From: Okeania sp. SIO2C9
Lineage (GTDB): Bacteria > Cyanobacteriota > Cyanobacteriia > Cyanobacteriales > Microcoleaceae
Reading direction: 5' to 3'
DNA: 64,000 nucleotides
Assembly (NCBI RefSeq): GCF_010672455.1
Contig: NZ_JAAHGO010000022.1
Coordinates: forward strand, 62,001 to 126,000
The position numbers were made by a program, and so were the translations under genes. Below the pieces are notes generated by a model. The model was not told the DNA's origin and made no database searches. It was given only the letters and a program-made list of their open reading frames with translations. Position 1 is the first letter of the stretch; each line of letters opens with the position of its first letter. Positions 7,975-42,668 of this stretch are shown piece by piece.

Positions 7975-10900
7975 CTACAAAACGACAGTGTAATTGTTAC
8001 GTTGAATATCAAAATTTAGATTGTAATATGGGTCGCCCAAATCCATACAAATTTGCCATTGGTCTAATAGCAACATATAGTCAACCACATCATAATTTTT
8101 TTGTCTGTGTTTCTCTGATCGATGGTTAATTAAAACACTACGGGGGGTAAAGACTATTCGCTTGCCATTTTTCTTCAACTTCAAACACAAATCAACATCT
8201 TGATAATCGGAGAAAAAATGTTCATTAAAGCCTCCAACCATTTCAAAATTTTGCCTACTCACCATCAAACAATCTCGACTTACAGCAGATACTTCTCTTG
8301 CACAAACTAAAGAACCTGCATAACCATCATGGTTAGTGGGAAAACCTCGCATTACATAATCAACTTTTCCAGATTTTCCTAATACAATGCCTGCGTGTTC
8401 AACAGTTCCATCTGGGAAAATTAATAGTCCTCCCACGGCACCAATATCAGATTGTTCGGCGTAATATAAAAGATGTCGTTGCCAATCTTCAGTAACAACT
8501 TCCAAATTAGTATTGAGGAAAATAAAATATTCTCCTTTGGCAGTTTTGGCAGCTAGATTATAAGCACGAGAATAATTAAATTGCCCTGATAGATTTAAAA
8601 CTTTCACCGCAGAATTTTCGATAATATTTTCTGTTTTTTCCCCACCAACTAAAATCACTTCATTTTTGGGATAAGTTGAAACAGACAAAAGATTTTTCGA
8701 CCATTGATCGATATTTTCTGAAATATCAGGAGCAGCAATAATCAGACTAATCAAAGGATGATTATTTCTAGGTAAAGGATTAATATTTATCCGATGTTTA
8801 CCTACCCCTGGTTCTGCTTTTGCTGCCAAACCAATTCTTTGTAAATGAGAGTTAACAGCAGCTTGTTGTACTACTTCAATACCTGCTTTAGCATCGGCAT
8901 CTCCCGAAATACTTCCTTTAACTTGTCGCCAATGATAAAGGTGTCGAGAAATATGAGCAATTTTATTAGTTTGTTCGGAAACTCGTAACATAAACTCATA
9001 GTCTTGTACTCCATCAAATTCGCTTTTAAAACCACCAGCAGTTAAAGCTATTTCTCGGCGGACGCATAATAAATGACCGACATACATTACACCACGAAAA
9101 TATTCAGGAGACCAGTCAGGTTTAAAGAATGGAACGATATAATTTAACCCAGAAAAATCAATTTTATCTTCATCGGAATAAACCACATCAAATCCTTCTG
9201 CCAGTTTATTGAGACTATCTTCTAATGCTGTGGGAGCCAGAGTATCATCATGGTCTAATAAACAAATATATTCTCCTGTAGCCATATTTAGAGCTTTATT
9301 TGTAGCAGCACTAATTCCACCATTGTCTTCTGAAAGTAGAACTTTAATTCTCGGTTCTTTTTCAGCTAAACCTGCAAGAACATTTCTAATTTCTGGTTGT
9401 TTCGAGCCATCATCAACAATACACCATTCCCAGTTAGGGATAGATTGGTTAAGAACACTTAAAACAGTTTCCACAAACCAATCTAAAGATGAATTCCAGG
9501 TTGGAGTAAGAATACTAATAGAAGGTTTACAGTCATCTATTCTTCCTTGTATCAAAGATTCAGAAAAATCCCTTTTTCCTTCTTCCTTCTTACTCCTTCC
9601 TTCTATATCAGAAAAATCCCTTCTTCCTTCTTCCTTCTTATTCCTTCCTTCTACTAAAGATTCAGAAAAATTCCCTCTTCCTTCTTCCTTCTTCCTTCTT
9701 CCTTCTATATCAGAAAAATCCCCTCTTCCTTCTTCCTTCTTACTTCTTCCTTCTACTAAAGATTCAGAAAAATCCCCTCTTCCTTCTTGCTTCTTACTTC
9801 TTCCTTCTATATCAGAAAAATCCCTTCTTGCTTCTTGCTTCTTCCTTCTTCCTTCTATATCAGAAAAATACCTCCTTCCTTCTTCCTTCTTACTTCTTCC
9901 TTCTACTAAAATAATTTCCCAGAATTTATCAACTGTTACTCCGGATAAACCCAATAATTCCTGTTTTTCTTTCGGTGGGAGAGTAGGAATTTTTGACTTT
10001 TGAGTAACTTCTTCTAAGGGTTTAGTTAGAAGTTTTTTTTTAGCCGTAGTTGAGGTATCTGGTTCTACAGGAAATAGACTCTTGACAGGAATATCTTCCT
10101 TTTGAGATTTGAACTTTTCTAAATCTGCTTGAATTTCTTGGATTTCTGTTTGCGATTTCTCCAAATCTGCCATTATTTCCGCTAGTAAAGGAGAGACAGA
10201 AGACTTAGATTCAGGAGTAATTTTTAAAGTAGATTCTGATGGTAAATTATTCTGCAACACCTCAGAGCGATCGCTATCCATTTTTTCCAAGTCTTGTAAA
10301 TTTTCTGACTGCTTATTTCCTGGTTCTTCTTTAAGCAAACTCTCAATTTTTTCCTGATTTACTCTGAGTTGTTCGGAGGAGCGAGCACTATCCATTTTTT
10401 CCAAGTCTTGTAAATTTTCTGACTGCTTATTTCCTGGTTCTTCTTTAAGCAAACTCTCAATTTTTTCCTGATTTACTCTGAGTTGTTCGGAGGAGCGAGC
10501 ACTATCCATTTTTTCCAAGTCTTGTAAATTTTCTGACTGCTTATTTCCTGCTTCTTCTCTAACCAAACTCTCAATTTTTTCCTGATTTACTCTGAGTTTT
10601 TCGGAGGAGCGATCGCTATCTATTTTTTCCAAGTCTTGTAAATTTTCTGACTGCTTACTTCCTACTTCTTCTCTAAGCAAACTCTCAATTTTTTCCTTCC
10701 TTACTCTGACTTCTTCCTTCTCAATAATTACCATATCTGGATAACTTCTCTTACCCACTCGTCCACACCAAGAACCATAATATTTTCCTAATACATTGAA
10801 ACCAGCATTAATCACCCACTCCAACAATAAAGACTCCAGAAAACCCATTCCTTTTTCTGGTGAATTTAGGTTTTTAGTAAAACCTTCCTTAACTCTATGA

Positions 10901-13764
10901 ATAAGAGGTTGAGAACTCTTGCCTTCAGATATTAATTGTTCTGACTCGTGGTTAACTAAGAAACATTGGAATAAGAGACGACCCTCTGGTTTTAAAACTC
11001 GATAAACTTCATCTAAATAATCGCGAATCTTACTCCCACCTACCTGAGTAAATCTGGAACCGATAAAGACAAAATCAAAACTTTTGTCGTCGTAGGGAAG
11101 TTTCAAATCAGAGTCTATCTGACGGAAATTGAAATGTGGTTTGTGACTGCTAATATTCTGTTGTGCCCAAGATATTAATTCTTCAGAAAAGTCATTCCCC
11201 TCATAACGACCTGGAGATTTTAAATAATAGGCTAGACCATAAGCAATATTCCCGACTCCACAACCAATTTCCAAAACTTCAGCAGTGGGTTGAAGACCTA
11301 CTCTGTGGATAAAGTCACCTAAAAATTTGCAGCTTCTTTGAATAAAGTTAATTGCTTTTCCTTCTATATATTTATCGTCAGGAATTGGCAGGGATGGATT
11401 AAAGAGTTGAAACAAAATTTCTCCCTCTTTTCCTTGAAATATTGGAGTCAGAGTAATTAGAGTATTTTGACAGTTTTGAATTTCTGCTTTTGTCAGAGGT
11501 ATTTCCAGACTAAATCTAGCATTTTCAGCATTATTAAGCTTAGTCCGAACTTTTGCGACATCTGGGCTAGGTAAACCTAATTTTTGTTCAAAAGAAGTAT
11601 ATTCTTGACTGCCGATGAAAACTTTAAAGCTTTCTACAGAACCAAAATTCTCAGAACCTACCCATCCAGATATGATTAATTTTTGATTGGCTTTCTCTAC
11701 TTGATCTAGATGACCCGTTGTTGTAATTGGTTCAATTGGCAGGATGAATCTTGGTTGTTCTTGAGCTATAGGTGCTTCAGAAAAAGTTAATGGTTTTGTT
11801 TTTTCTGGCACTGTATATGGCTCCAAATCAACTACATTTTTTTCAGGTAAATCAATTGCACTTTTGCCTTCTTCCTCACTTCTAACTTCTTGTTCGCTTC
11901 TAACTTTTGACTTTTTACTTTTGACTTTTTCCTCCTCACTTCTAACTTCTTGTTCACTTCTGACTTCATTACTTCTTCCTTCTTCCTCTCTTGGTGCGCA
12001 TTCCCTCTCTTGGTCGGCGTTCCCTTGCGCCTGTCGGCGGCGCGGGGTCCGACCGCTTGCGTCTTTCGCCGACGCGGGGTCGCACCGCTTCTTCTCTCTT
12101 CCTTCCTTTACTTTAGACAAAACCTGACCTTTGCCGTCTTTAAATATAGGAGTTAAAGCAATCTCAGTATTTTGGAATTGTGAAATTTGTTCGGAGTTAA
12201 GAAATGCCTTAATACGAAACCTTGCTTTGTCAGAATGATTGAGATTGGGGTGTAATTTTCTCACATCTGGACTTGGTAAATTTAAGGCAGTTTCAAAATT
12301 TTCTATTTCAGTATCTGCAATAGTTAATTGAAAGCTTTTGACTGCTCCTAAATTACGAGAAACTACCCAACCTATTAGTAATAATTCTTGGCGGTCAAAC
12401 TCTACCTTATCCAGAGAACCCAATGTTGCTAATATTTTTGTTTTTTCTGGCACTGTATATAGCTCAAAATCAACTACATTTTTTTCAGGTAAATTAATTG
12501 CACTTTTTCCTTCCTCCTTCTTAACTATATTTTGTCCTGACAAATTCATGCCATTTCTAACTTCTTGTTCACTTCTAACTTCTGACTTCTGGCTTTTGCC
12601 TTCCTCCTTCTCCCTTCTTCCTTGATTATTAACTATATTTTCTGCTGGTAAATTAATGTCACTTCTTCCTTCTTTTTGTTCACTTCTAACTTCATTCCTT
12701 CTTCCTTCTTCCTTCTTCCTTCTTCCTTCAGCTCGTAATTTTAAAGCTGCTGCATAAAGTTCCATATCTTGACTATTAGCATTTGCCAATTCATCCATTA
12801 ATTTTTTGTCTGATAAAACCTCTTTCTGAAAGTCAAGATATTCAGGATAAGGATTTCTATTTTGATAAATAACTTGATAATCTGACCAACCAAGAAGATT
12901 TTTTAGTGCCAGTAAATCCTCTTCAAAATATTCTGTAATTCCGACAAAATCAAAATAATCCAGAGAGTTACCATTCACACAATAAGCCATAAGATTACTG
13001 TTACTTTGAGCAAACTTCAGTAAACCTTGTTTATTTAGATAATCTTTTGTAGGATTCGATATGTGGCGAAAACAATAATCAGAAATTAATCTGTGGATAG
13101 GTTCTCTTAACCATGTAATTCTCTTAGTCTCAGGAAATAATTTATCGTACTTACCCGCGGGAAAATGACCCTCAATAACTTTAGTCTGCCAATGAATAGT
13201 AGCTGGCATATTATCTTCAAACATATTAGTTTTATCTGTCAAAACTCCCTGAGTTCCATAAACTTGTAATAAAACTTGTCTGAAAGCTGTTCCGGCTGCT
13301 TTTGGCACATGAACAGAAATAAGTTCTACTTGAGGAGTTTGGATTGGTAAATTATTTGCTTCTGGTGTTTTAACTAAAGCAGATAAAGCAGGATTAACTG
13401 CATTTAATAAAGGTTCTCCTTCACGGTCAGCAACAAGAGGAATTAAAATAATCAGAGCATCCTTAAATTGTTGTTGCTGCTGTTTATTCATTGGCAATCT
13501 AATAATAAACCGAGCGTTATTAGCAGCAGAAATATTTGGATGTGCTCTTTTCACTCCAGGGCTAGGAAGACCTTGAGTTAATTCAAATCCTATTAATTGT
13601 TGACTGCCAAATAAAACCTTAAAAGTAGTTACAGATTCAGGCTCGAACGAGAGAACCCATCCACTCAAACAAACAGTTTCATTTTCGATTGCTACTTGGT
13701 CTAAAAATCCTGTAGTTGCTGCTAGTTGTGTAGGTTCTTTCTGTACTATTTCAACTTTTTCCAT
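7975..13764 (-). CDS. Giant modular enzyme: sulfotransferase, methyltransferase and two GT2 domains
   Basis: This 1929-residue protein starts at ATG 13764. Approximate order: SGW module (15-125); sulfotransferase-like domain with P-loop HVPKAAGTAF and LREPIHRLISDYCF (145-300); repeat linker; second SGW module (450-555); linker with a GC-rich insertion (565-600); third SGW module (690-790); SAM methyltransferase with LEIGCGVGNIA (810-1000); four 38-residue repeats (1015-1166); about seven charged repeats ending FSDIEGR or FSESL (1287-1408); GT2 domain with TPTWNSS, VDDGS and LDHDDT (1411-1650); a second GT2-like domain (1665-1910). It probably adds, methylates and sulfates sugars of an extracellular polysaccharide. 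There is no signal peptide, so it acts inside the cell. It heads a minus-strand group of four similar genes. Confidence 0.85.
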   Translation of the reverse strand: MEKVEIVQKEPTQLAATTGFLDQVAIENETVCLSGWVLSFEPESVTTFKVLFGSQQLIGFELTQGLPSPGVKRAHPNISAANNARFIIRLPMNKQQQQQFKDALIILIPLVADREGEPLLNAVNPALSALVKTPEANNLPIQTPQVELISVHVPKAAGTAFRQVLLQVYGTQGVLTDKTNMFEDNMPATIHWQTKVIEGHFPAGKYDKLFPETKRITWLREPIHRLISDYCFRHISNPTKDYLNKQGLLKFAQSNSNLMAYCVNGNSLDYFDFVGITEYFEEDLLALKNLLGWSDYQVIYQNRNPYPEYLDFQKEVLSDKKLMDELANANSQDMELYAAALKLRAEGRRKKEEGRRNEVRSEQKEGRSDINLPAENIVNNQGRREKEEGKSQKSEVRSEQEVRNGMNLSGQNIVKKEEGKSAINLPEKNVVDFELYTVPEKTKILATLGSLDKVEFDRQELLLIGWVVSRNLGAVKSFQLTIADTEIENFETALNLPSPDVRKLHPNLNHSDKARFRIKAFLNSEQISQFQNTEIALTPIFKDGKGQVLSKVKEGREKKRCDPASAKDASGRTPRRRQAQGNADQERECAPREEEGRSNEVRSEQEVRSEEEKVKSKKSKVRSEQEVRSEEEGKSAIDLPEKNVVDLEPYTVPEKTKPLTFSEAPIAQEQPRFILPIEPITTTGHLDQVEKANQKLIISGWVGSENFGSVESFKVFIGSQEYTSFEQKLGLPSPDVAKVRTKLNNAENARFSLEIPLTKAEIQNCQNTLITLTPIFQGKEGEILFQLFNPSLPIPDDKYIEGKAINFIQRSCKFLGDFIHRVGLQPTAEVLEIGCGVGNIAYGLAYYLKSPGRYEGNDFSEELISWAQQNISSHKPHFNFRQIDSDLKLPYDDKSFDFVFIGSRFTQVGGSKIRDYLDEVYRVLKPEGRLLFQCFLVNHESEQLISEGKSSQPLIHRVKEGFTKNLNSPEKGMGFLESLLLEWVINAGFNVLGKYYGSWCGRVGKRSYPDMVIIEKEEVRVRKEKIESLLREEVGSKQSENLQDLEKIDSDRSSEKLRVNQEKIESLVREEAGNKQSENLQDLEKMDSARSSEQLRVNQEKIESLLKEEPGNKQSENLQDLEKMDSARSSEQLRVNQEKIESLLKEEPGNKQSENLQDLEKMDSDRSEVLQNNLPSESTLKITPESKSSVSPLLAEIMADLEKSQTEIQEIQADLEKFKSQKEDIPVKSLFPVEPDTSTTAKKKLLTKPLEEVTQKSKIPTLPPKEKQELLGLSGVTVDKFWEIILVEGRSKKEEGRRYFSDIEGRRKKQEARRDFSDIEGRSKKQEGRGDFSESLVEGRSKKEEGRGDFSDIEGRRKKEEGRGNFSESLVEGRNKKEEGRRDFSDIEGRSKKEEGKRDFSESLIQGRIDDCKPSISILTPTWNSSLDWFVETVLSVLNQSIPNWEWCIVDDGSKQPEIRNVLAGLAEKEPRIKVLLSEDNGGISAATNKALNMATGEYICLLDHDDTLAPTALEDSLNKLAEGFDVVYSDEDKIDFSGLNYIVPFFKPDWSPEYFRGVMYVGHLLCVRREIALTAGGFKSEFDGVQDYEFMLRVSEQTNKIAHISRHLYHWRQVKGSISGDADAKAGIEVVQQAAVNSHLQRIGLAAKAEPGVGKHRININPLPRNNHPLISLIIAAPDISENIDQWSKNLLSVSTYPKNEVILVGGEKTENIIENSAVKVLNLSGQFNYSRAYNLAAKTAKGEYFIFLNTNLEVVTEDWQRHLLYYAEQSDIGAVGGLLIFPDGTVEHAGIVLGKSGKVDYVMRGFPTNHDGYAGSLVCAREVSAVSRDCLMVSRQNFEMVGGFNEHFFSDYQDVDLCLKLKKNGKRIVFTPRSVLINHRSEKHRQKNYDVVDYMLLLDQWQICMDLGDPYYNLNFDIQRNNYTVVL
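9538..9907 (-). repeat. Polypurine tandem repeats inside the giant glycan gene
   Basis: The coding strand repeats units such as GAAGGAAGAAGGAAGAAG followed by a segment encoding FSDIEGR or FSESLVEGR, about seven to eight times. The unit is roughly 45-60 bp and stays in frame. The sequence resembles the intergenic short tandem repeats common in this genome. It encodes a flexible, highly charged linker before the GT2 domain. Confidence 0.75.
10267..10722 (-). repeat. Four tandem 114-bp coding repeats
   Basis: Units start at 10267, 10381, 10495 and 10609, exactly 114 bp (38 codons) apart. They encode copies of a helical segment containing KQSENLQDLEK, RVNQEKIESL and an acidic stretch, so a coiled-coil spacer is likely. 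The first and last units carry a HIP1 site (GCGATCGC) where the middle ones have GCGAGCAC. Confidence 0.85.
11993..12089 (-). repeat. GC-rich palindromic repeat inserted in frame in a coding linker
   Basis: About 97 bp of very GC-rich DNA sits inside an AT-rich polypurine linker. It begins GGTGCG and ends CGCACC, with inner GGTCGGCG and CGCCGAC arms, so it can fold on itself. It keeps the reading frame and encodes CDPASAKDASGRTPRRR and neighbouring residues, unlike the Lys/Glu-rich linker around it. This fits insertion of a short mobile repeat. Confidence 0.65.
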
Positions 13765-14148
13765 ATTGATAAGATTCTGCTAAATTATTTTTTGTAAACC
13801 CTCAATAGTACGATAAACTGAGCAAATTTTAGTTCATTTATTAGTTTGATTATAGGTAAGATTTTTCTCTATAATGCTGCAAAAACAGCAGTCAAATAGC
13901 CTCATAAGGTCATAACTGCGGACTTCAGCGATCGGAAATCAACTTATTATTGTATAAGGATAATTCCGCATAAAAGAAACAAATAACTAGCTATCGACCA
14001 AGAGAAAATGAAAGTTCAATATTTCAATCCCAATACTTTAGGCAGAGGTACTGATAACTGATAACTGAAATAACTCCTGACTTCTAAGTAGTTAAGATTA
14101 ATATCATACAATAATTCAGCAACGCCAAATATTTTTTTCCAACCTGAT
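13765..14148. other. Upstream spacer of the giant gene with a TGCTG/CAGCA motif
   Basis: No gene was seen. A motif at 13864-13893 (CTCTATAATGCTGCAAAAACAGCAG) recurs with changes at 17868-17894 and 17960-17988, before the gene that starts at 17805. Read on the genes' strand it is a TGCTG..CAGCA inverted repeat. A short TTATCAG run lies at about 14049-14069. The 74-residue frame at 14016-14240 is the complement of the IS605 left end and is not regarded as a gene. Confidence 0.4.
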
Positions 14149-14203: not shown

Positions 14204-14211
14204 CAGCAAGG

Positions 14212-15930: not shown

Positions 15931-15933
15931 AAG

Positions 15934-15963
15934 CTCCCGTTATAATCTTTGATTTAACGGGAG
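15934..15963 (+). repeat. Right-end hairpin of the IS605-type element
   Basis: CTCCCGTTA (15934-15942) and TAACGGGAG (15955-15963) form a perfect 9-bp stem. On the minus strand it encodes the last residues (LPLNQRL) and the stop codon of the neighbouring gene 15940-17805. Confidence 0.7.
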
Positions 15964-17805
15964 AGACTTCACAACTAACAAATCTTCTTTAAAAGATGAG
16001 GTACGACCACACCAAGAACCATAAGATTTTTCTAGAACACTAAACCCTCGTTCATTGATCCACTGTAATAGTAGATTTTCTCTAAAACCAATTCCTTTCT
16101 CTGGCAAATTAATATCTTTAGTAAAACCATCTTCTGTTTCATAAATAAGCTGTTGAGAACTTTTGCCTTTAGCTATCAACTGTTCTGATTCTGAGTTGAT
16201 TAAAAAGCAGATTAATAAGCACCTCCCTCCAGGTTTCAAAACTCGATATATTTCATCAAGATAGTGGATAACTTCCAGACTTTGTAAATGAGTTAATAAA
16301 TGAGGAATACAGACACAGTTAAAACTTTCATCAGGATAAGGAAAAGTGAAGTTAATTGCTGATATTGTGCCAGTGGGGTTATACAGAGGATGATGAATAT
16401 TATGCCAGTTAAAATTAAAGTTAGGTTTGCGTATTGTAATTTCTTTTTGTAGCCAATAAATCGAATTTTTTACCATATCAAAACCTTCGTAACGACCAGA
16501 AGGATGTAAATAATGAACTAAGGCATAAGCAACAGTACCAATATTACAACCAACATCCAGAATATGGTCTGTGGGTTGTACACCTAATCTCTGAATTAAA
16601 TCTCCTAGTAACTTGAAGGAAGTACGAATAAATTGACCGCTTCCATCAACCTCAGTTATTTTTATATCTTTCTCTTCAGGCAGTAGTAAAAGTGGTACTA
16701 ATGCCTTTAATAAAATTATCCCCTCACCACGTTTAAATTGAGGAGTTAAAGCAATTAATGAATGCTTTAATTGGTTAATTTGTTGTTGATTTAAAAGTAT
16801 TTTGAGACGGAATCTAGCATGACTTGCGCTATCTAAACTAGGATGATTTTTTTCTACATCTGGACTGGGTATATTGAGAGTTTGTTCAAAAAAACTAAAC
16901 ACTTGATTACCAATAAAAACTTTAAATCCTTCCACCATACCAGCATCAAGGGAAGCAACCCAACCAGATAAGTACAACACTTGATTTTGAATAACTGCTC
17001 TGTCTATAGAACCCCAAGTAAGTAGAGGATTAATTTTTGTTGTTTTCTGGGAAATTTGTTGTTTTCCAAATGATAAATTTTCGAGATTTTCTTGAGTGTA
17101 GTATTGTATTTTTGATGTTTTTCTCCGGTTCTCCCGCAAACTTAGCGCTTCTCGATAAAGTTCTATATCTTCCTGATTTATCGCCGATATTTTATTGACT
17201 ATTTTTTGATTAGATAAGACTTCTTCTAATAATGACTTATATTCTGGATAGGGATTAGTATTTTGGGTTTCAAGTTTATAGTCTGGCCAGTTTAGTATTA
17301 ATTTTAGTTCATGTAAATCTTCAGGAAAAAATTCTTGAATTCCGACAAAGTCAAATTCTGTTAATTTTTGCTCTTGAACAAATTTTGATTTAATTACATT
17401 CTGCATCTCTGGTTTTTCGGCGAATTCTATAAATGTCAAATTAGACTCTTTGACTGGTGATAAATTTTGTTCATCACTTTCTACTAAAATTTGCCAAGTC
17501 TTCCAAAAAAAGTAAAGAGAAATCAACCGTTTTATCGGGTCTCTTAGCCAAATAATTTTTCTAAACTCTGGAAATTTATAATCATATTTATTACTAGAGA
17601 AATGACCATGAATTACTTTGATTACTGGGTTGGGATTGGTTAACATTTTATTGCGTAAACCACCCTTGTGAGGATAGTCGAAGAAAATCTCTTCTGGATA
17701 ATATATTTGCTTCAAAACTTGTTTAAATGTTGTACCAGCAGTTTTTGGTACATGAATTGAAATAACTTTTGCCTTTACTTCTTCTAATTGATTGATTTGG
17801 CTCAT
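15940..17805 (-). CDS. Sulfotransferase, SGW module and methyltransferase fusion
   Basis: This 621-residue protein starts at ATG 17805. Residues 10-230 form a sulfotransferase-like domain: P-loop SIHVPKTAGTTFKQVL for PAPS and a second motif WLRDPIKRLISLYFFW. Residues 265-370 are one SGW module (YLSGWVASLDAGMVEGFKVFIG ... LNIPSPDVEK). Residues 385-605 are a SAM methyltransferase with LDVGCNIGTVAYAL and EIYRVLKPGGR. Its order matches part of the 1929-residue protein at 7975-13764. The last eight or so codons and the stop are supplied by the IS605-type right end, so the C terminus is probably truncated; a further domain may have been lost. It likely modifies a cell-surface glycan in the cytoplasm. 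Confidence 0.83.
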   Translation of the reverse strand: MSQINQLEEVKAKVISIHVPKTAGTTFKQVLKQIYYPEEIFFDYPHKGGLRNKMLTNPNPVIKVIHGHFSSNKYDYKFPEFRKIIWLRDPIKRLISLYFFWKTWQILVESDEQNLSPVKESNLTFIEFAEKPEMQNVIKSKFVQEQKLTEFDFVGIQEFFPEDLHELKLILNWPDYKLETQNTNPYPEYKSLLEEVLSNQKIVNKISAINQEDIELYREALSLRENRRKTSKIQYYTQENLENLSFGKQQISQKTTKINPLLTWGSIDRAVIQNQVLYLSGWVASLDAGMVEGFKVFIGNQVFSFFEQTLNIPSPDVEKNHPSLDSASHARFRLKILLNQQQINQLKHSLIALTPQFKRGEGIILLKALVPLLLLPEEKDIKITEVDGSGQFIRTSFKLLGDLIQRLGVQPTDHILDVGCNIGTVAYALVHYLHPSGRYEGFDMVKNSIYWLQKEITIRKPNFNFNWHNIHHPLYNPTGTISAINFTFPYPDESFNCVCIPHLLTHLQSLEVIHYLDEIYRVLKPGGRCLLICFLINSESEQLIAKGKSSQQLIYETEDGFTKDINLPEKGIGFRENLLLQWINERGFSVLEKSYGSWCGRTSSFKEDLLVVKSLPLNQRL

Positions 17806-18147: not shown

Positions 18148-20154
18148 CTACTTTCCTAATTCTCTTTGAATCTTTTGTAATCTAAGGTTGTATTGTTTTA
18201 AGACTGTTTGATAGTTATTCAATTTTGATTGAACTTCAGTTTTTTTTTGCAGAATTAGCAAATCTTGATGAGTAAAAGATTTACGCCCACACCATGAACC
18301 ATAATATTTCCCTACAACAGTTAAACCACTTTCTTTTATCCAATCAATTATTAGGGATTCTTGAAAGCCTATTGTTTTTTCTGGCAGTTCTGGATCTAAA
18401 CAAAAACAACCTTCTATTTCATAGACTAAATGCTGAGAACTCTTGCCATCAGCAATCAATTGTTGAGATTCATAATTAATTAAAAAGCAGGCAAATAAAC
18501 ACTTTCCTCCTACTTTTAAAATTCGCTGAATTTGCTGGAGATAATGACCAACATCAAAGCTAGATAAATGATGAAAAAGATTGCTAATACAAACCACATC
18601 AAAACTTGCTTCTGCATATGGAAAGACAAATTTTTCCACAGGCAAAGTTCCCTTTGAGTTATAAATAGGATGATAAATATCCTGGTATTGAAAATTAAAG
18701 TTAGACTTTCTAGAAGTAATTTCTTGATTTGCCCAATCAATTACTTTTTCTGAAAAGTCAATACCTTCATAACGTGCTTTAGGTGTTAAATAATAAGCCA
18801 AACTATGAGCAATTTCACCCATTCCACAGCCAATATCAAGAATACTATCTGTTGGTTTGAAACCTATTCTTTGAATTAAATATCCTAACCATTTAAAAGC
18901 ATTAGACTGAAAGTCAACAGAACTATTTCTATCAATCTGACTAATGTATTCTTCAGAAGGAATCTTTCCAGAAGGATTAAAGACATTGATCAAAACAGAC
19001 CCCTCAAAATTTCCCAACATAGGGATTAAAATAATTAGGATATCTTGATAGCTTTCTCTATGAATTTTATTGAGAGGTATTTCTAGACAAAATCTTGCCT
19101 TTTCTGCCCCTTTTAATCTAGGGCGTGCTTTTTTTATTCTCGGGCTTTTTATTCCTAGAGTTTGTTTAAAGTCTTTATACTCTTGACCTCCAATCCAAAC
19201 CTTAAAACCACTAACAGGAATTAGATTTAGAGAAACTATCCATCCAGTTAGTCTTAATTGTTCATCGTTGATTACTACTTTACCTAAATTACCAATTGTT
19301 AGTAATGAGTTTGATTCTTTTAAGGCAGATTCTACCTGTTCTTTCTCCAAGGAAAATGCTGCTAGTGATTTTCTCAGTAGAGGAATATATCTGTGAATAG
19401 TCAAATCTTCTACATCATTACGGTCGTGATAGTTTATTTCTGCTATTTTTCTATTTTTATTAACAGTCGCCCTACCTCTTTTTATTTTATTTAAACTTTC
19501 TTCCATAGACCGAGTGAAGTAGTGATTAATTCTCAATTTATTCACTGAATGTTGAGGAGAAACTTTTGCCGATAATTTTTCATAGTTTTCGCTAACTGCT
19601 ACTCCATCATTAACATAGACAAAATGATGAGGAGTAGTACATTCAAGAGTAAACTCACTACGAACAATACATTTGAAATTTAGATTGGCTTTAAAATCCT
19701 CTTTACCTCGTTTAGTAAAATTTTCTATTTGTAATCCTTCCGGTTTTTTCTCATATCCTGATGTGCCAAAAATCAACCAATTAACCCCTATAGCTGGAAC
19801 ATCTGGGAATTCTTCTAATATTTCTCTTAAATCATTTTTTTCTGTAGGGAATAAAAATTCATCTAAGTCTATAAATGCTATCCATTTCGATTCATTTTTA
19901 TACTTTTGTAGGAAATGATTATATGCCTTCATTTGTTGACCATTTTGCACAGGCCAATTTGTCAGAACTACTTCATGATTTTCTCTATACGGACGAACAA
20001 TATCAAGAGTACGATCGGCACTATTGTTGTTGTATAAATAAAATCTTTCCACACCAACTAACTTATGAAATTCTAGCCATTCTCTCAAATAAGGTCCTTC
20101 ATTTTTCATAATTGCACACACACTTAAAGTGGCTTTTTTTCTTACCTGATTCAA
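18148..20154 (-). CDS. Glycosyltransferase (GT92/GT2-like), SGW module and methyltransferase fusion
   Basis: This 668-residue protein has a TTG start at 20154, chosen because GGAG lies about 9 bases upstream and no ATG precedes the conserved first strand (SVCAIMKNEGPYLREWLEFH). Residues 5-280 are a GT-A glycosyltransferase with ERFYLYNNNSADRT and a DxD-type FIDLDEFLFP. Residues 290-400 are the SGW module (RLTGWIVSLNLIPVSGFKVWIGG). Residues 415-630 are a SAM methyltransferase (ILDIGCGMGEIAHSL). A short coiled tail follows. It is the third of four minus-strand modular glycan enzymes and may be co-transcribed with the gene at 15940, with a gap of about 340 bases. Confidence 0.82.
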   Translation of the reverse strand: MNQVRKKATLSVCAIMKNEGPYLREWLEFHKLVGVERFYLYNNNSADRTLDIVRPYRENHEVVLTNWPVQNGQQMKAYNHFLQKYKNESKWIAFIDLDEFLFPTEKNDLREILEEFPDVPAIGVNWLIFGTSGYEKKPEGLQIENFTKRGKEDFKANLNFKCIVRSEFTLECTTPHHFVYVNDGVAVSENYEKLSAKVSPQHSVNKLRINHYFTRSMEESLNKIKRGRATVNKNRKIAEINYHDRNDVEDLTIHRYIPLLRKSLAAFSLEKEQVESALKESNSLLTIGNLGKVVINDEQLRLTGWIVSLNLIPVSGFKVWIGGQEYKDFKQTLGIKSPRIKKARPRLKGAEKARFCLEIPLNKIHRESYQDILIILIPMLGNFEGSVLINVFNPSGKIPSEEYISQIDRNSSVDFQSNAFKWLGYLIQRIGFKPTDSILDIGCGMGEIAHSLAYYLTPKARYEGIDFSEKVIDWANQEITSRKSNFNFQYQDIYHPIYNSKGTLPVEKFVFPYAEASFDVVCISNLFHHLSSFDVGHYLQQIQRILKVGGKCLFACFLINYESQQLIADGKSSQHLVYEIEGCFCLDPELPEKTIGFQESLIIDWIKESGLTVVGKYYGSWCGRKSFTHQDLLILQKKTEVQSKLNNYQTVLKQYNLRLQKIQRELGK

Positions 20155-20620: not shown

Positions 20621-23350
20621 TCAAAGCCAGGCAGGATCATAAATAGCATCTGAAGATCCATTAATCTCAGTGGCATAAAATTCATCAATAAATTTTTCTC
20701 CCTCTTTCTGATACTGCTTGTAACGTTCTTGCCAAAAGCCACCATGTTTTTGTGATATATCTTGGCTTACTTCGTAAGCTTTTCCTCCATTCACAATTTT
20801 TTGTTTTATCTGTTCTCTAGAACGATATCTGTATTGTCTGAGAATGAGTCCATGATTTTTTCCAAGTGCTGTGACAGGTAACTTCTTTCCCTCAAACTTT
20901 ACATGATGATGTCCCTGAGCTATTTCCATACCTAATTGCCAACGAACTATAACCTTACTGTAACCCTGACTGCGAAAAAGAGAAGTATCTTCCTTCTTTC
21001 TGTGAGTCATTCTTTTGAGAGGATTAGGTTCAGACGAATCGTAGAATGAGCGTGGCAAATAATTTCTGTGCTGGAGACCTAGACAAAAGTGTTTTGGCCC
21101 CAATTGACTGAGAATATTTCGTAGAGGTTTGTCCAATGAAGCAATCACTTCATCAGCGTCAAATGGAAATATCCATTTTGCTCCCCACATTCTGTGAGCA
21201 AACTCAGCAGCAGCAGACATTTTTCTAAACTTATGAAATAAAGGGTCTCTATCTTCAATTAGATAAACCATTGCTTCTGGATAATCATCAGCAAAACGTC
21301 TAATTTCATCTGTCGTTTTATCTGAGGATAAATGATCTAAGACTACGAATTTTGTGATGCCTTGTTGATAATTTCCAGCTAAAGTGTAGTAGATAATATC
21401 TTCTTCATCTTTCACCATTGAAACACCAGCAATAATTACACTTTCTTCCGATTTATGAGATATTTGCTTTTGATTTTTTAGTGATTGGTTTGGCTCTATA
21501 TTTGTGATTTTTTGCAGTGTTTTTTGCCACCAATAAGTATGACGATTTTTGCTAACAGTTTTTGTGAATTGCCAATCTCTTAACAAATCTTGAGCTTGTT
21601 TATATTTTTCTCTTTGTGCATCATCCAACATCAATATTCCACCTGGTTTTAAAAGTTTAATTGATGCTTCAAAGCATTTCATTCGATCGCGACCATCTAC
21701 AAGAATTAAATCGAAAGATTCTTCAGGAATTTTTTCACATATTTTATGATATGGTCTTGCTAATAGTTTAATATCTACTGGATGACAATTTTTCTGTTTC
21801 TGAATCTGATTTTTTACTTGCTGAAACCACCTACCGTCATGCTCAATAGAAGTCAGATTTTTAGTTAACTTAGATAGCCATATAGTAGAACCTCCACTAC
21901 CAAATTCCAATACTTTAGCATGAGGCTTTTGCTTCAAGAAATTTTCTAAAAATTTGATAGCTTCTTCTGTCAATAAAGGTGTAGATTTAATGTTTAGTGA
22001 TTTAGTATTATTAGTCCGGATACAACCTATTGGCATTCGAGTTTTATCAGCAAATACTGCTTGTATTAGCCAATTAAATTTGGGTCGTAATTTATTGACT
22101 TGGAAGTCTATACTAAAACCAATTTCTTCTACTTGGGGTGCTTCTGGATAACGTTTAGCTATATCAGGGTATAGCTGATTAACAGATACTTTTTTCAGTA
22201 TGCTACTTAATTCTACTATTTCTATAGCAACTACAGGACTGTTTTTTCCTAATACCCATCCAGAAATATTAATGGTATCTTGATTGTTAGTTTTTTCCTG
22301 AATTTCTGTAATTTCATATCCCCAAAATAATTCATCATATATTGGGTGAGAGTCTGCATCATAATTTTCAACAACTATTGTTGATGTTGTTGATGATTGA
22401 ACAAAAGAGTTAATTACATTCTCTTCAACTTCCTGAAAAGTTTGCCTTGATTTGGAAATTGATTTTGAATCCATTTTTGACTTAATTTGCTCTAACTCAG
22501 ACTGATAGTTATGTAATTTTTCTTTGACTTGAGACAGGGATATATGTTGTTTTTGTTCTTTGTTACCATTCATTTCCCAATTAAATTTTCTACCTAAATA
22601 TTCTTCTAATTTTTGATTATAAGGTTGAAAGTATTCAGCAAGATTTGAGCGGATTTTTGGATTTATTGGCTGATAATAAATTTCATTATATTTCTTTTTA
22701 TTAGTTACTTGATAATTGGGCAAACCCAAAAATTCAAAAACTTCTTTTAGTGTGACATCTGGACGAGCATAAAAATCTTCACTTTTCAGAATTAAGAACT
22801 GTTCTCTGGGAAAAATACTCATCCATTTTTCTAATTGTTCAATGTAAATTCCTCTTTCTAAATAACTATAGTTTCTATGAAATAAACTTCTGTAATTTTC
22901 ATCAGAGATGAGTTTTTCTTTTTCTATATTCAATCTTTCTGACTCTTTTTCAATTGCTTTTATGAAAGGTAAAGGTTCTCGTTTTTTACTAATTCCTCGA
23001 TTATGATGATAATGAGATACTGCTCTATCTATAGGATTTCTTAAAAGCACAATTAATTTAACATCTGGTAATAAATTAAACATCCTCTGGGGAGTATGTG
23101 GATCGACCAGATAATCTGGTGTAGCTTCCCCAGTTATGAGATTTTTTCCATTAGGAATTGTGGGAAACTGAGATAAATACCAATCTACTCCTTCTACAGT
23201 TTTTCTGTTTCCCGGTTTAGAACGCCAGTTAAAAAAATGCAATTCTTTCATTGATGCTGGCAAAATTTGTGGATGCTCAATCACATAGTTATACAAGGAA
23301 GTTGTACCACACTTTTGAGCGCCTATGATGATAAAACTAGGTAAAGTCAT
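20621..23350 (-). CDS. Sulfotransferase, SGW-like module, methyltransferase and glycosyltransferase fusion
   Basis: This 909-residue protein starts at ATG 23350. Residues 1-260 are a sulfotransferase with the PAPS loop IIGAQKCGTTSLYNY and the second motif VLLRNPIDRAVSHYHH. Residues 345-430 hold a divergent Gly-Trp module (ISGWVLGKNSPVVAIEIVEL), closest to that in the gene at 41154. Residues 440-600 are a class I methyltransferase-like fold (VLEFGSGGSTIWLS, LILVDGRDR). Residues 635-909 are a GT2/GT92-like glycosyltransferase (VSMVKDEEDIIYY, IFPFDADEV). Sulfation and glycosyl transfer in one chain point to sulfated polysaccharide assembly. It is the outermost gene of the minus-strand group, and the neighbouring TPR genes run in the opposite direction. 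Confidence 0.82.
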   Translation of the reverse strand: MTLPSFIIIGAQKCGTTSLYNYVIEHPQILPASMKELHFFNWRSKPGNRKTVEGVDWYLSQFPTIPNGKNLITGEATPDYLVDPHTPQRMFNLLPDVKLIVLLRNPIDRAVSHYHHNRGISKKREPLPFIKAIEKESERLNIEKEKLISDENYRSLFHRNYSYLERGIYIEQLEKWMSIFPREQFLILKSEDFYARPDVTLKEVFEFLGLPNYQVTNKKKYNEIYYQPINPKIRSNLAEYFQPYNQKLEEYLGRKFNWEMNGNKEQKQHISLSQVKEKLHNYQSELEQIKSKMDSKSISKSRQTFQEVEENVINSFVQSSTTSTIVVENYDADSHPIYDELFWGYEITEIQEKTNNQDTINISGWVLGKNSPVVAIEIVELSSILKKVSVNQLYPDIAKRYPEAPQVEEIGFSIDFQVNKLRPKFNWLIQAVFADKTRMPIGCIRTNNTKSLNIKSTPLLTEEAIKFLENFLKQKPHAKVLEFGSGGSTIWLSKLTKNLTSIEHDGRWFQQVKNQIQKQKNCHPVDIKLLARPYHKICEKIPEESFDLILVDGRDRMKCFEASIKLLKPGGILMLDDAQREKYKQAQDLLRDWQFTKTVSKNRHTYWWQKTLQKITNIEPNQSLKNQKQISHKSEESVIIAGVSMVKDEEDIIYYTLAGNYQQGITKFVVLDHLSSDKTTDEIRRFADDYPEAMVYLIEDRDPLFHKFRKMSAAAEFAHRMWGAKWIFPFDADEVIASLDKPLRNILSQLGPKHFCLGLQHRNYLPRSFYDSSEPNPLKRMTHRKKEDTSLFRSQGYSKVIVRWQLGMEIAQGHHHVKFEGKKLPVTALGKNHGLILRQYRYRSREQIKQKIVNGGKAYEVSQDISQKHGGFWQERYKQYQKEGEKFIDEFYATEINGSSDAIYDPAWL

Positions 23351-28826: not shown

Positions 28827-35252
<6,426 letters not shown>

Positions 35253-38259: not shown

Positions 38260-38586
38260 ATGACAGCTATAACCATCAACTTTAACAATATCCTCAAACG
38301 TACCGACGACCAATTCTATCAACTATCCCGAGATAATCCCGAAATTAAATTTGAACGTAACATCAGAGGAAAATAACAATAATGCCACCTAATGGAGGAG
38401 AAACAGGAAAATATTATAATGCTTCTGTTATTGCTGATTTTGTAATATGGAATCGTCAAACAAAACTAGGAATAGTTATTCGACTCCTCAACCTGTTTCA
38501 AACTTCCCAATGGTTCAAACCGTTCTCCCGATGTATCATGGATTAAAGTAGAAAGGATGATATATTTATTACTGGATAAAAATTAG
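38260..38586 (+). pseudogene. Uma2-family (PD-(D/E)XK) nuclease, decayed
   Basis: ATG 38260 gives MTAITINFNNILKRTDDQFY, QLSRDNPEIKFERN, then stops. Other frames continue MPPNGGETGKYYNASVIADF, VIWNRQTKLGIVI, STCFKLPNGSNRSPDVSWI and KVERMIYLLLDKN. The order matches the cyanobacterial Uma2 family (DUF820), with the SPD..WI catalytic strand near the end. At least three frame changes occur in about 330 bases, so it is dead. Confidence 0.75.
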
Positions 38587-38601
38587 TTGGATATTTTAAC
38601 C

Positions 38602-39279
38602 ATGAACGAGCGCAATAATGACAATGATTTATTAAAGTATTTTGAAAATAATCCCGGTCGATTAATTCACAAGTGGATGCATTACTTTGAAATCTATGAG
38701 CGCCATTTATCTCGATTCAGAAACCAGGAGATTCATGTAGTAGAAATAGGAGTGAATTATGGTGGATCTCTACAAATGTGGAAGAAATATTTTGGTGATA
38801 ATGCCTACATATATGGAGTAGATATAAAGAAGCAGTGCAAACAATTAGAAGAAGAAAGAATCAAAATAATTATTGGCAACCAAGAAAATCGAAACTTCCT
38901 CAAACAGATGAAGAATCTATGTCCTAGAATTGATATTTTAATAGATGATGGAGGCCATCGGATGTTGCAGCAGATTAATACCTTTGAGGAATTATTTCCT
39001 CATATATCTGAAAACGGAGTTTACATTTGTGAAGACTTACATACTAGCTACTGGGCTAACTTTGGCGGAGGTTATAGAAATCCCAATAGTTTTATTGAGT
39101 ACAGCAAAACTCTAATCGACAAATTAAATGCTTGGCACAGTAAAGATACAGAAAGTTTTCAGGTGACAGATTTCACTCGCTCTGCTTATTCAATGCATTA
39201 TTACGATAGTGTTTTGGTAATAGAAAAACGTAAAATGGAGAATCCTGTTGTCAGAAAGACAGGTAATAAATTATTTTAA
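38602..39279 (+). CDS. Class I SAM-dependent methyltransferase
   Basis: About 225 residues from ATG 38602 (MNERNNDNDLLKYF); the TTG at 38587 would begin inside the preceding Uma2 remnant. The SAM-binding strand is HVVEIGVNYGGSLQMWKKYF (about 45-65), followed by YIYGVDIKKQ and IDILIDDGGHRM, the IDDGGH being typical of CmcI/TylF-like and Methyltransf_24 enzymes. YICEDLHTSYW follows. Members methylate sugars or small molecules. No signal peptide. It begins a plus-strand run with the genes at 39375 and 40122, consistent with glycan methylation. Confidence 0.8.
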   Translation: MNERNNDNDLLKYFENNPGRLIHKWMHYFEIYERHLSRFRNQEIHVVEIGVNYGGSLQMWKKYFGDNAYIYGVDIKKQCKQLEEERIKIIIGNQENRNFLKQMKNLCPRIDILIDDGGHRMLQQINTFEELFPHISENGVYICEDLHTSYWANFGGGYRNPNSFIEYSKTLIDKLNAWHSKDTESFQVTDFTRSAYSMHYYDSVLVIEKRKMENPVVRKTGNKLF

Positions 39280-39374
39280 AATTACTGTATAAATAATCTC
39301 TAAACTAGGGTTTTTAATATTTAAAATACAAAATCATAGAAGAATAAGAAGTTAAAATTATTAGGGAAAGTAGG

Positions 39375-40049
39375 ATGTTATCAAGTAATAAAAATTCTCC
39401 ACAACGTTTAGCTCCAAATCATCCTAACGGGATTAAAAAAGTACAAGTGGGTTGTGGCCCCCATAATATTATGGCTGATTGGTGGAATGTGGATATTCGA
39501 GCTTTTCCTGGTATTGACCAAGCGATGGATGTAACTAAACCTTGGCCTTTTAATGGTTTAGAATATGTATATGGGGAACATTTTCTCGAACATTTAAGTC
39601 TAGAAGGAGCGATCGCTTTTCTCAATAATGTTTGGAAAAGTCTTAAACCTGGTGGGGTAGTTCGACTTTCTACTCCCTCTCTAGAGTGGGTAGTTTCTAC
39701 TCACTTTAATCTGTCGGAAACTAACCCACAAAAGCGAATTGATTCTACATTTTCTATGAATCGCGCCTTTCATGGATGGGGTCATCAATTTCTTTATTCC
39801 AAAGATTTTTTGCAATCTCTACTCGAGAATTTGGCATGGGAAAAAGTAGTATTTTGTGAATATGGAAAAAGTCAGCATTCAAATTTGATAGGTATCGAAC
39901 GTCATGGTAATTATCGGATTGATAATGGATATCCGAATGTTTGGATTGTTGAAGCTAAACGCGGTGAAAGTCGTTCTGAATCTAGTGTTTTATCTTATCA
40001 AAAATTACTGGATAAATCGTATGTCAGTTATGTTAGGTCTGGTCATTAA
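39375..40049 (+). CDS. SAM-dependent methyltransferase, type 11-like
   Basis: This 224-residue protein starts at ATG 39375. The SAM motif is VQVGCGPHNIMADWWNVDI (about 25-43), then AMDVTKPWPF, YGEHFLEHLS and VWKSLKPGGVVRLSTPSLE, the pattern of the predicted SAM methyltransferases found in polysaccharide clusters. NRAFHGWGHQFLYSKDFL follows. No membrane or export signal. It lies 96 bases after the previous methyltransferase and 73 before a glycosyltransferase, so a small operon is plausible. The acceptor is unknown; a sugar is inferred from context. Confidence 0.82.
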   Translation: MLSSNKNSPQRLAPNHPNGIKKVQVGCGPHNIMADWWNVDIRAFPGIDQAMDVTKPWPFNGLEYVYGEHFLEHLSLEGAIAFLNNVWKSLKPGGVVRLSTPSLEWVVSTHFNLSETNPQKRIDSTFSMNRAFHGWGHQFLYSKDFLQSLLENLAWEKVVFCEYGKSQHSNLIGIERHGNYRIDNGYPNVWIVEAKRGESRSESSVLSYQKLLDKSYVSYVRSGH

Positions 40050-40121
40050 TTAATGTTTGCCTGGATGTTCTAGAGATTAATTACTCTTATTTGTTGTTAT
40101 TAATATTTAGCAAAATTAGAT

Positions 40122-41105
40122 ATGTCAAACGAAATATTACCACCCCATCTCGAAAAAATTAGATTAGAATTGGAAGGTTATTCTCAATCTCTACACTATC
40201 ATCGAAAGTCTTTACAACAAATAGAGGCAAAGTTAAAACACTTATCATGTTTTCCAGTTAAGCAAACTCAACTAGAAATACCTAGAAATAAGAAATTAGT
40301 TCATTGTGTACTACTAAGTTTTTATTTTCATGAAATATTAGAACGGTGTTTAGAGGGGTTGTTGCCAGAAAAAGAAAGAATAGACGTAAGTGTGATAGAA
40401 AATAATAGTGTGAATTCTGATGCGATTAGAAAAGTTGTAGATTCATATAGGGATAAAGGTTTAGTTAAAAATCATTTTATTTTTGAAGAAAATATAGGTA
40501 CTAATGCTTTTGAAATTGCTTTTGATAGTAATTTACTAGACCTAGATTATGAGTATATAACTGTTACTGATGGGGATTTAATTCCAGATTCGGGTTGGTT
40601 GGATGAGCAAATTACTATTCTAGAAAAATTTCCAGAGGTATTTTCTGTGAGTACACCACTGCACTACAATAATGCACCTCCTAACCTCAAGAAACAAGCT
40701 ATGAAAGTTCCTATAGAATCTGAAAATAATTTCTATAAAGAACGCATTGCAGGGTGGGTTTTTAAGACATTCAGAACCTCAGATTGGAAAAAATTTATAG
40801 CTTTTAGGAAAAAACATAAAATCTTTTTTCATGACAGTTCATCATATATATATGCCAAAGAAAAAAAAAATATGAAGTCAGTACTAACTATCAAGGCAAA
40901 ATCATATCATTTAACTTGGGACTATTCTAATTCTGAATATCTGCAGTTAAAAAATTCTCTAGGAAAACAAAGTAATAAAGTATGGTATCACAATCAATAC
41001 TCAGGATTTTTCTTTGTTCAAGAAAGTAGTGAAGATTTGTACTTTCCAGCTCCTCTAGAAGTAGTACATCAAAGATTATCTACTAAGTTAATTAACACTC
41101 CTTAG
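40122..41105 (+). CDS. GT2-like glycosyltransferase
   Basis: This 327-residue protein starts at ATG 40122. Residues 1-50 are a short helical N-terminal region. The catalytic GT-A region begins VHCVLLSFYFHEILERCLEG (about 66). It has SVIENNSVNSDAIRK and a D-x-D in YITVTDGDLIPDSGWLDEQ, expected to bind the metal and nucleotide sugar. A C-terminal region with SYHLTWDYSNSEYLQLK follows. It ends the small plus-strand run with two methyltransferases and is convergent with the sulfotransferase at 41154. Exact sugar specificity cannot be read. Confidence 0.75.
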   Translation: MSNEILPPHLEKIRLELEGYSQSLHYHRKSLQQIEAKLKHLSCFPVKQTQLEIPRNKKLVHCVLLSFYFHEILERCLEGLLPEKERIDVSVIENNSVNSDAIRKVVDSYRDKGLVKNHFIFEENIGTNAFEIAFDSNLLDLDYEYITVTDGDLIPDSGWLDEQITILEKFPEVFSVSTPLHYNNAPPNLKKQAMKVPIESENNFYKERIAGWVFKTFRTSDWKKFIAFRKKHKIFFHDSSSYIYAKEKKNMKSVLTIKAKSYHLTWDYSNSEYLQLKNSLGKQSNKVWYHNQYSGFFFVQESSEDLYFPAPLEVVHQRLSTKLINTP

Positions 41106-41153
41106 TTACAAGTAAAAATATTAAACTACTTTTTAAATTATCAAAGTTAATAC

Positions 41154-42668
41154 TTAAGATTTCTCTAAAGATTCTTTAATATTTTGAATCTTAGACTTCA
41201 TTTGTTCTAATTTATTTCGTGCTGATTCTGTAGATTTTACCAAATTAGAATTAGTTGGTTTCAATGATGGTTCAGATTTAACTTCAGGTTTAGTAATTTT
41301 TGGTAAAGGAGATAGTTTTTCTTCACCAGTAAGACTATAACCAAATTCTTGTAAAGCTTCTTTGCATACTTCAGTAGATAGAGCTTGTAGAGAAGGTTCT
41401 AAATCTTTTTGCCAACGTCCTATAGATTCTTCAGGACTATCAGTTGTTCTATGACGTTTCAACTTTGGCGTATCTTTGGATGCTTTTTCCAAAATTTTAG
41501 AAATAGTTGAACTGCTATTATCTAAATTCAAATATACAAAAATATCACTTAAAGTTTGTTCAGGAGCTAAGATTAAATCTTCATAGCGTACTAGGTGTGC
41601 TTCTTCTTTTCTTTCTCGCCATATCTCTAGTAGATTTGCAGCAGTATTTTTAATTGTAGTTTTGATATAGTCGATATCATTATCTACTCGTTGACGACCA
41701 AAAGACATATATCCTCTCTTAGTATTGAAAGCAAGTGCCGAACAACAAATGTCACGAAAATCACGAACTAGAACAATTTCTTTAGCTTGGGGATACACTT
41801 CCAATAAAAGTTTTCGGTGGGGGTTTGGCAGAAACTTCTCCACAAAGTAGAATTGCTGATGCTGACTATCTGTATTGTGAGAAAGTTCGGAGACTATTTT
41901 TCCTTGATTGCGCCCCATGTATTCATATAAATTATCTATGCTGTGTCGGCAAAAATCTGCAAACTGTTCTGGATAATCACGTCCTAGCCAATCATGGGCA
42001 GCATGGCCATTAAGTTTCCCATGATAAGGATTAGGTCCAATGGATTGAAATTCTTGATAAAAGTAAGTCCCCTGAAATTTATCAGGATTGCGTGGCTGTG
42101 AGAGAATATTCAACATCTGTATCCAATATTGTGATACTCGGAACTCATAAGGATAAAATTCACTAGCAATAATGGATGGATGTTCTGAAAAGATTCGCAT
42201 CAACCATGTAGTTCCCGATCGCCCTGAAGATGTAAATACTAGAGGTTGTAACTTAGCTTGATAATTAGAATGTAGAGGTTGGCGATGATAGTGGATTATT
42301 CCCAATAGTACAGTGCTTCTATTTTCAAGAACTGCTCTAATACGAACTTCACCCTGTAATGGCAATCCTATGACTCCAACTTCTATATTGAAACCACACC
42401 TTTTAGCCCATGAAACTTCTGGATAAAGTTTAGATACACCTAGACGTTCAATATTTACAGGAACTTGTCCTAAAACTCTGCCTTCACTGAGAACCTCAAC
42501 TGCTACCACTTTTGATTTCTTACCTAATACCCACCCAGAAATTTCTATGGTATAGGTTTTAGCTTGATTTCCCTTTTTTGGATGATCTATAGCAAAACCC
42601 CATAATGCTTCTTTATCAATTTCTGCACGAGTAACATTTAAAAAATCAATTACAGTACTTTTATTCAT
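41154..42668 (-). CDS. Sulfotransferase with N-terminal Gly-Trp module
   Basis: This 504-residue protein starts at ATG 42668. Residues 25-120 form a module (EISGWVLGKKSKVVAVEVLS, VNIERLGVSKLYPEV) nearly the same in pattern as that inside the gene at 20621. Residues 130-430 are the sulfotransferase: 5'-PAPS loop TSSGRSGTTWLMRIFSEHP and 3'-phosphate motif VLVRDFRDICCSALAF. A low-complexity, probably coiled tail ends the protein. It likely transfers sulfate from PAPS to a polysaccharide in the cytoplasm or at the membrane. It is convergent with the gene at 40122. Confidence 0.83.
   Translation of the reverse strand: MNKSTVIDFLNVTRAEIDKEALWGFAIDHPKKGNQAKTYTIEISGWVLGKKSKVVAVEVLSEGRVLGQVPVNIERLGVSKLYPEVSWAKRCGFNIEVGVIGLPLQGEVRIRAVLENRSTVLLGIIHYHRQPLHSNYQAKLQPLVFTSSGRSGTTWLMRIFSEHPSIIASEFYPYEFRVSQYWIQMLNILSQPRNPDKFQGTYFYQEFQSIGPNPYHGKLNGHAAHDWLGRDYPEQFADFCRHSIDNLYEYMGRNQGKIVSELSHNTDSQHQQFYFVEKFLPNPHRKLLLEVYPQAKEIVLVRDFRDICCSALAFNTKRGYMSFGRQRVDNDIDYIKTTIKNTAANLLEIWRERKEEAHLVRYEDLILAPEQTLSDIFVYLNLDNSSSTISKILEKASKDTPKLKRHRTTDSPEESIGRWQKDLEPSLQALSTEVCKEALQEFGYSLTGEEKLSPLPKITKPEVKSEPSLKPTNSNLVKSTESARNKLEQMKSKIQNIKESLEKS

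Follow-up and report, generated by a model that had tools for sequence, protein, structure and literature searches.

The locus examined here raises the question of what a recurring Gly-Trp (SGW) module does in a set of fused sulfotransferase (ST), methyltransferase (MT) and glycosyltransferase (GT) enzymes. It lies in a 64,000-nt stretch of DNA, referred to as the window, that covers positions 62,001-126,000 of the forward strand of contig NZ_JAAHGO010000022.1 (assembly GCF_010672455.1) from Okeania sp. SIO2C9, a marine filamentous cyanobacterium. To our knowledge, the genes for O-methylation and sulfation of cyanobacterial polysaccharides are poorly known. In the domain orders given below, m denotes the module and MT' a second MT family.

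Module copies in the window

Five close copies of the module (~110 residues), designated type I, are present in three proteins encoded on the minus strand. P0001 (1929 aa, 7975..13764) has the order m1-ST2-m2-(repeat linker)-m3-MT-(repeat linker)-GT2-GT2, in which m1 (aa 17-127, 13384..13716) directly precedes a Sulfotransfer_2 domain identified with Pfam (aa 144-337, 12754..13335), m3 (aa 682-792, 11389..11721) directly precedes a SAM methyltransferase domain (aa 808-1017, 10714..11343), and m2 (aa 447-555, 12100..12426) has, in Okeania, no enzyme of its own immediately downstream. The two GT2 domains of this protein span aa 1411-1660 and 1681-1929 (7978..9534). The remaining copies are those of P0002 (621 aa, 15940..17805; ST2-m-MT), at aa 263-373 (16687..17019), and of P0003 (668 aa, 18148..20154; GT92-m-MT), at about aa 286-396 (18970..19299).

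Pairwise identity among the five copies is 34-47%, and 18 of the 111 alignment columns are invariant. When HMMs built from four copies were run against the 49 ORFs of the window, the hidden fifth copy was retrieved at E values of 2e-39 to 3e-32, and the best non-copy match (E 0.009-0.014) was, in all five runs, P0004 at 20621, a carrier of a diverged module. Strong matches to the five-copy profile in the 10.9-Mb genome were limited to these five, with the next at E 0.27. The alignment and the leave-one-out HMMs thus bear out the original prediction of three copies at 7975-13764 and one each at 15940 and 18148; the SGW repeats are real and conserved.

Diverged forms had also been proposed, from the sequence, for the proteins at 20621, 28827 and 41154. 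The modules of P0004 (909 aa, 20621..23350, minus strand; ST1-type II module-MT24-GT2_4), at about aa 342-448 (22010..22327), and of P0006 (504 aa, 41154..42668, minus strand; type II module-Sulfotransfer_3), at about aa 22-129 (42285..42605), have the pattern IxGWVLGKxSPAVAVEI...RPGVAKxYP...GF and were designated type II. Types I and II aligned over 88 columns in hhalign (probability 93.7, E 1.9e-7), and an HMM built from seven type II rows and no type I rows matched type I modules in place, with a best E value of 6.7e-6 in a relative. The same HMM was weak on the five type I copies of the window (E 0.011 to 1.4), and control searches of reversed and shuffled ORFs gave E values of 1.1 or higher. 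As judged by these profiles, types I and II are homologous. The module of P0005 (2141 aa, 28827..35252, plus strand; TPR array-type III module-GT2-GT1-like domains, with repeat linkers), at about aa 658-759 (30798..31103), was designated type III. It matched type II in a profile-profile comparison that covered just 45 columns (probability 94.2, E 1.1e-7), and a type III HMM retrieved its own relatives first and then type II modules at E 3e-3 and weaker, while direct profile comparison of type III with type I was insignificant (E 0.085). Type III is a probable, though not a proven, weaker relative that would be joined to the family via type II. Diverged forms can therefore be accepted at 20621 and 41154, given the homology of type II, and are only probable at 28827; to the same extent, the homology of the forms agrees with the claim that these enzymes are linked by a single family of modules.

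When all 46 type II candidates in the Okeania genome were scored, three clear and two weak places were found. Two of the clear places are those in the window, and the third belongs to a different contig, where the frame is 1569 aa long; one of the weak places (E 0.0019) is in a 2456-aa frame in which a sulfotransferase match was obtained as well. Between P0005 and P0006, the plus strand encodes a Methyltransf_24 methyltransferase (38587..39279) without a type I module (best E 1.6), a methyltransferase-like protein that scores under the Pfam cut-off (39375..40049), and a GT2 (40122..41105).

Predicted fold and distribution of the module

The module is predicted to be a compact Ig-/FnIII-like beta-sandwich of about 100 residues, with two sheets and approximately seven strands. 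Mean pLDDT was 93.5 for type I and 91.0 for type II, and strands and main helix follow one another in the same order in the two models. A difference in fold between copies had been named beforehand as evidence against a common module; since types I and II share one predicted fold, no such difference was found between them.

The eight modules searched alone against Pfam at E values up to 10 gave best values of 0.06-0.12, and NCBIfam gave a best value of 0.062, all far short of the cut-offs. No family covered the module among the matches listed in whole-protein domain scans, and sequence searches of the PDB returned either no relative or chance-like RNase HII matches at E 1.3-1.5; this negative result for sequence relatives extends to the families listed by VIA-align. 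Likewise, no description of the module, or of fused ST/MT/GT enzymes in cyanobacteria, was found in titles or abstract openings in the literature. Hence, within the scope of that literature search and of Pfam, NCBIfam and the PDB, the suspicion that the module is undescribed was supported: the SGW module is a new domain family within a known, predicted fold class and is missing from the domain libraries searched. A Foldseek search of BFVD at E ≤ 1e-3 returned two uncharacterised viral proteins (323 and 371 aa; 20% and 17% identity), and two scans of viral contigs found no sequence relative. Rfam gave no match within the window.

Searching cyanobacterial genomes with module HMMs, as the original prediction had proposed, found relatives, with type I narrowly and type II sparsely distributed. 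Among close relatives, type I was present in 28 of 59 genomes, Okeania sp. SIO2C9 included, at E ≤ 0.01 (24 strong), and across the phylum in at least eight of 386 genomes at E ≤ 1e-3 (six strong; best 12 candidates per genome). Single type I modules occur in genomes G013 and G018 (loci L028, L030 and L052). The range of type I is narrow, comprising the taxonomic family of the source organism and two more. Type II was found in at least 14 of 292 sampled cyanobacterial genomes, including that of the source organism (best 16 candidates per genome), and outside the cyanobacteria in one Thioploca MAG, which was itself the only positive among 299 genomes of its phylum. A wider scan of genome contigs gave six loci only. 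These counts for the two phyla do not support type II as a widespread bacterial family.

Position beside enzyme domains and exchange of cassettes

The placement of type I was assessed for 69 modules from the window and 20 stretches of relatives, which were chosen for holding the module. An enzyme domain lies directly downstream, within 60 residues, of 52 of the 69, at a gap of 12-30 residues. The next domain within this distance is an MT of one family in 35 cases (gap 13-19), Sulfotransfer_2 in 12 (gap 12-27) and an MT of the second family in five (gap 24-30), and in eight it is another module. For the rest, another module lies farther away in five cases and a GT2 in one, and nothing was recognised up to the end of the ORF in three. 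Upstream, within 60 residues, are ST2 (18 of the 69), GT92 (7), the second MT (5) or a module (8); 19 modules open their protein. For proteins that begin with an enzyme, the original prediction placed the module between enzyme domains, and this is correct for the three such proteins (ST-m-MT, GT92-m-MT and ST-m-MT-GT). A place between enzymes is often seen in the wider set too, as for 30 of the 69 there is in addition an enzyme no more than 60 residues upstream. With 52 of the 69 directly before an enzyme, the type I module is mainly a prefix. Type I precedes Sulfotransfer_2 and two MT families and type II precedes ST2 and ST3, so that the families downstream differ; types II and III are also found next to TPR arrays and glycosyltransferases, on either side of the enzyme.

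Whether the module always lies beside sulfotransferase, methyltransferase or GT domains had been proposed as a check. A Pfam search of 35 module ORFs (a selection, counted raw) found such a domain in 31; of the other four, one has TPR only and three have no Pfam domain. P0001, P0003 and P0004 each have at least two GT/MT domains on one chain according to Pfam, and a stand-alone protein of module plus MT (357-392 aa) is present in several genera. When 194 genomes were searched starting from the MT (best 15 candidates each, E ≤ 1e-40), at least six matches were obtained. All four at E < 1e-90, three of them in the window, have the module in the ORF, and the weaker two (E 5.8e-49 and 3.0e-47; 288 and 295 aa) are without it. 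The reverse rule fails, as most sulfotransferase matches of the Okeania genome are without types I and II. Of the four places with Sulfotransfer PF03567, two belong to proteins that carry a clear module of type I or II, as does one of at least 25 places with PF13469, a count that is a lower bound since the sulfotransferase of P0004 is missing from it; one further place is in the 2456-aa frame with the weak type II match.

In a tree of the 69 type I modules, clusters follow position in the protein and not the genome, and the 12 modules that precede the sulfotransferase fall into a single group (support 100/98). With 111 columns, 18 of the 65 inner branches of this tree are unsettled. The labelling of downstream MTs in the tree missed some of them, and it was therefore read for its clades and for the ST2 group alone, the neighbour counts given above being the better ones. 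Clustering by position across genera suggests that the paralogues are older than the split between the genera. Distances between modules and between the MT domains that accompany them were correlated over 35 units (Mantel r 0.93; the largest of 999 permutations was 0.25), with a correlation of 0.51 among deep pairs. In P0002, the sole protein compared in this way, conservation of the module equals that of the catalytic domains: mean pairwise identity among 12 orthologues is 0.71 for the module, 0.71 for ST2 and 0.72 for the MT, as against 0.45 and 0.49 for the linkers.

Orthologues of P0001 gain or lose whole module-enzyme units, referred to here as cassettes. The order m-ST2-m-m-MT-GT2-GT2 is found in the window and at L037, L038, L039 and L041, and at L036 the protein is represented by two ORFs with two additional modules. 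L044 and L047 have m-ST2-m-MT'-m-m-MT-GT2-GT2, and L049 has m-m-MT'-m-GT2-GT2, without a sulfotransferase. At L045 the ORF ends after m-ST2-m-m-MT, and at L042 and L043 it ends after m-ST2-m-m-MT'-m at the contig edge. Such domain architectures across loci show that enzyme parts are swapped around the module, as predicted. Copies without an immediately following enzyme are retained over genera.

Possible role of the module

Bacterial PAPS sulfotransferase, SAM methyltransferase and GT2/GT92 domains are expected to have a cytosolic intermediate as substrate. Given the variety of enzyme families, the short fixed spacing, and the joint inheritance and loss, the module is best explained by something that the enzymes share, and this common element is plausibly the acceptor glycan or its carrier. 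The reading preferred here, to which we give about an even chance, is that the module is an Ig-/FnIII-like prefix on glycan-modifying transferases that holds the acceptor glycan or carrier near the active site. The prefix would hold or orient the glycan chain as it grows, or the lipid that carries it, and a glycan held next to the active site would permit multiple steps on the same chain, with several modifying steps on one polypeptide acting together. A sulfated, methylated product is plausible, and it may be a sulfated, O-methylated surface glycan, in line with the surface polysaccharide supposed in the original prediction. No export genes were recognised by eye in the listed ORFs of the window or the contig flanks, where ORFs of at least 200 aa were viewed over their first 110 residues.

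The short constant gap to the MT (13-19 aa) and the strong co-divergence of the module with that domain would equally be expected if an Ig-like domain packed on, stabilised or dimerised the enzyme and spaced its catalytic domains, binding no glycan. The conserved residues could all be structural, and the matches to the module are generic Ig-like ones. Such a role is possible, if somewhat improbable, as the same module before different enzyme families is unexpected for a tailor-made interface, and copies persist over genera without an enzyme right after them. Holding of the acceptor glycan is favoured over this purely structural role only modestly, the latter being nearly as good an explanation. 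A stronger version of glycan holding, in which the prefixes are docking units of a covalent assembly line on which a tethered chain is sulfated, methylated and extended in order, with species swapping cassettes, is rather doubtful; it likens the insertion and deletion of cassettes to modular synthases.

The presence of several module proteins in one locus, of tandem modules, and of type II and III modules in proteins with TPR arrays could also mean that the modules bind one another or a partner, for example the TPR arrays, and so gather separate enzymes into a complex. Against this, some genomes that have just one type I match encode stand-alone module-MT proteins, and we consider such a scaffold unlikely. 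The linkers around the modules are rich in short DNA repeats, as would follow from a recent, functionless expansion of internal repeats, but that explanation is contradicted by the clustering of copies by position across genera, as seen for the pre-sulfotransferase group, and by the conservation of the P0002 module, and is highly improbable.

The module and its fused enzymes can be set beside several known systems. Small beta-sandwich accessory domains are found in glycoside hydrolases, namely chitinase A, GH157, beta-glucuronidase, CbhA (FnIII) and TVA II. The chlorovirus PBCV-1 protein A064R, described as GT-GT-O-methyltransferase on one chain that adds two rhamnoses and a methyl group, resembles the module proteins in having several glycan transferase domains, including an MT, on one polypeptide, and its domains act in turn on one glycan, the MT methylating rhamnose. 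It differs in consisting of two rhamnosyltransferases and an MT without a sulfotransferase, and the available part of that report does not mention a repeated prefix module of ~110 aa (PMC9614988). The xss cluster for synechan, a sulfated polysaccharide of the cyanobacterium Synechocystis, shares sulfotransferases and GTs with the locus in the window but has Wzx/Wzy-type polymerisation genes; in the part of the account available, no module is described, and the word "methyltransferase" is absent from the main text (PMC8205485). The same source records abundant sulfotransferases in Trichodesmium, and its abstract states that "very little" is known on the subject (PMC8205485). Calcium spirulan of Arthrospira platensis is sulfated and contains 3-O-methyl- and 2,3-di-O-methylrhamnose (PMC8146687), chemistry that fused ST/MT/GT enzymes could give; an ABC-type cluster has only been suggested for it (PMC8205485).

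The module provides a sequence handle that marks ST-MT-GT fusions in Okeania, in Trichodesmium and among relatives. Species with and without the m-MT' cassette are suited to asking whether cassette content predicts the decoration of sugars. If the prefix binds glycan, the module would also be a portable acceptor-targeting domain. The module family seems to be gained and lost with its enzymes, and together they are possibly a set of parts from which sulfated and methylated sugar chains are made.

Tandem repeats in the interdomain linkers

Tandem repeats lie in frame in the interdomain linkers of two large multidomain proteins, P0001 (type I modules with sulfotransferase, methyltransferase and GT2 domains; repeats at window positions 9540-9912, 11868-12090 and 12521-12730) and P0005 (a TPR array, a type III module and glycosyltransferase domains; 31176-31827 and 33148-33757), and are translated as repeated peptides. 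Many have a 7-base unit, with units of 14-32 bases at 11868-12090. In the P0001 linker leading from the methyltransferase to the GT2 domains, a 114-base unit is repeated four times with 94% matching (10265-10716). The linker between the Sulfotransfer_2 domain and the second module of P0001 is 101 aa long in the window and 36 aa in the related locus L041, and that between the second and third modules is 126 aa versus 24 aa. As these lengths differ, such in-frame repeats may have grown into interdomain linkers.

Further modules and viral structural matches

In 10 of the 13 other genomes with a match, the probable type III module of P0005 (30798-31103) has an identity of 92-99%, which is above the 38-93% found across orthologues for the module of P0002, a sulfotransferase-methyltransferase protein. 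A third clear type II module of the genome is on a separate contig (G000:C57:35896-36210), close to the C-terminal end of a protein of 1560 aa. A Thioploca MAG also encodes a protein in which a type II module is joined to a sulfotransferase (L066). Among viral structures, the type I model was matched best by BFVD entries A0A7S9SU02 (E 3.6e-4) and A0A5B8IE80 (E 8.2e-4), uncharacterised proteins of 323 aa from Virus NIOZ-UU157 and 371 aa from Mimiviridae sp. ChoanoV1, respectively, the lengths of which would be compatible with a prefix joined to an enzyme.

Direct repeats and transposases near the module genes

Around the module genes lie IS605 OrfB-type transposase genes (775-2004, 6223-7155 and 14946-15725). 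For those at 6223-7155 and 14946-15725, a Pfam scan gave no hit to the TNB domain expected at the C-terminus. TAACTGA direct repeats, with at most 2 mismatches in 21 bases, are found at 3645-3679 (minus strand) and 14048-14068 (plus strand). Such repeats are known in Beggiatoaceae, some cyanobacteria and Bacteroidetes, where they were read as a possible sign of horizontal transfer (PMC4679880).

Sulfotransferases and sulfatases

Across the whole genome, Sulfotransfer_3 matched at 25 places or more and Sulfotransfer_2 at 4, several sulfotransferase matches falling within open frames of 640-2456 aa and the majority lacking a clear module of either type I or type II. A truncated Sulfotransfer_1 gene (52353-52721; 122 aa) matched the profile over its first third only. 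Two sulfatase genes (PF00884; 57405-59162 and 59655-62156) are followed just past the window by a gene for a sulfatase-modifying FGE-type protein (PF03781; L122:1467-2474), and the GC content around these genes is higher, at 0.47-0.49 versus 0.31-0.39. The sulfatases and FGE-type protein could serve the turnover of sulfated glycans close to the site of their synthesis.
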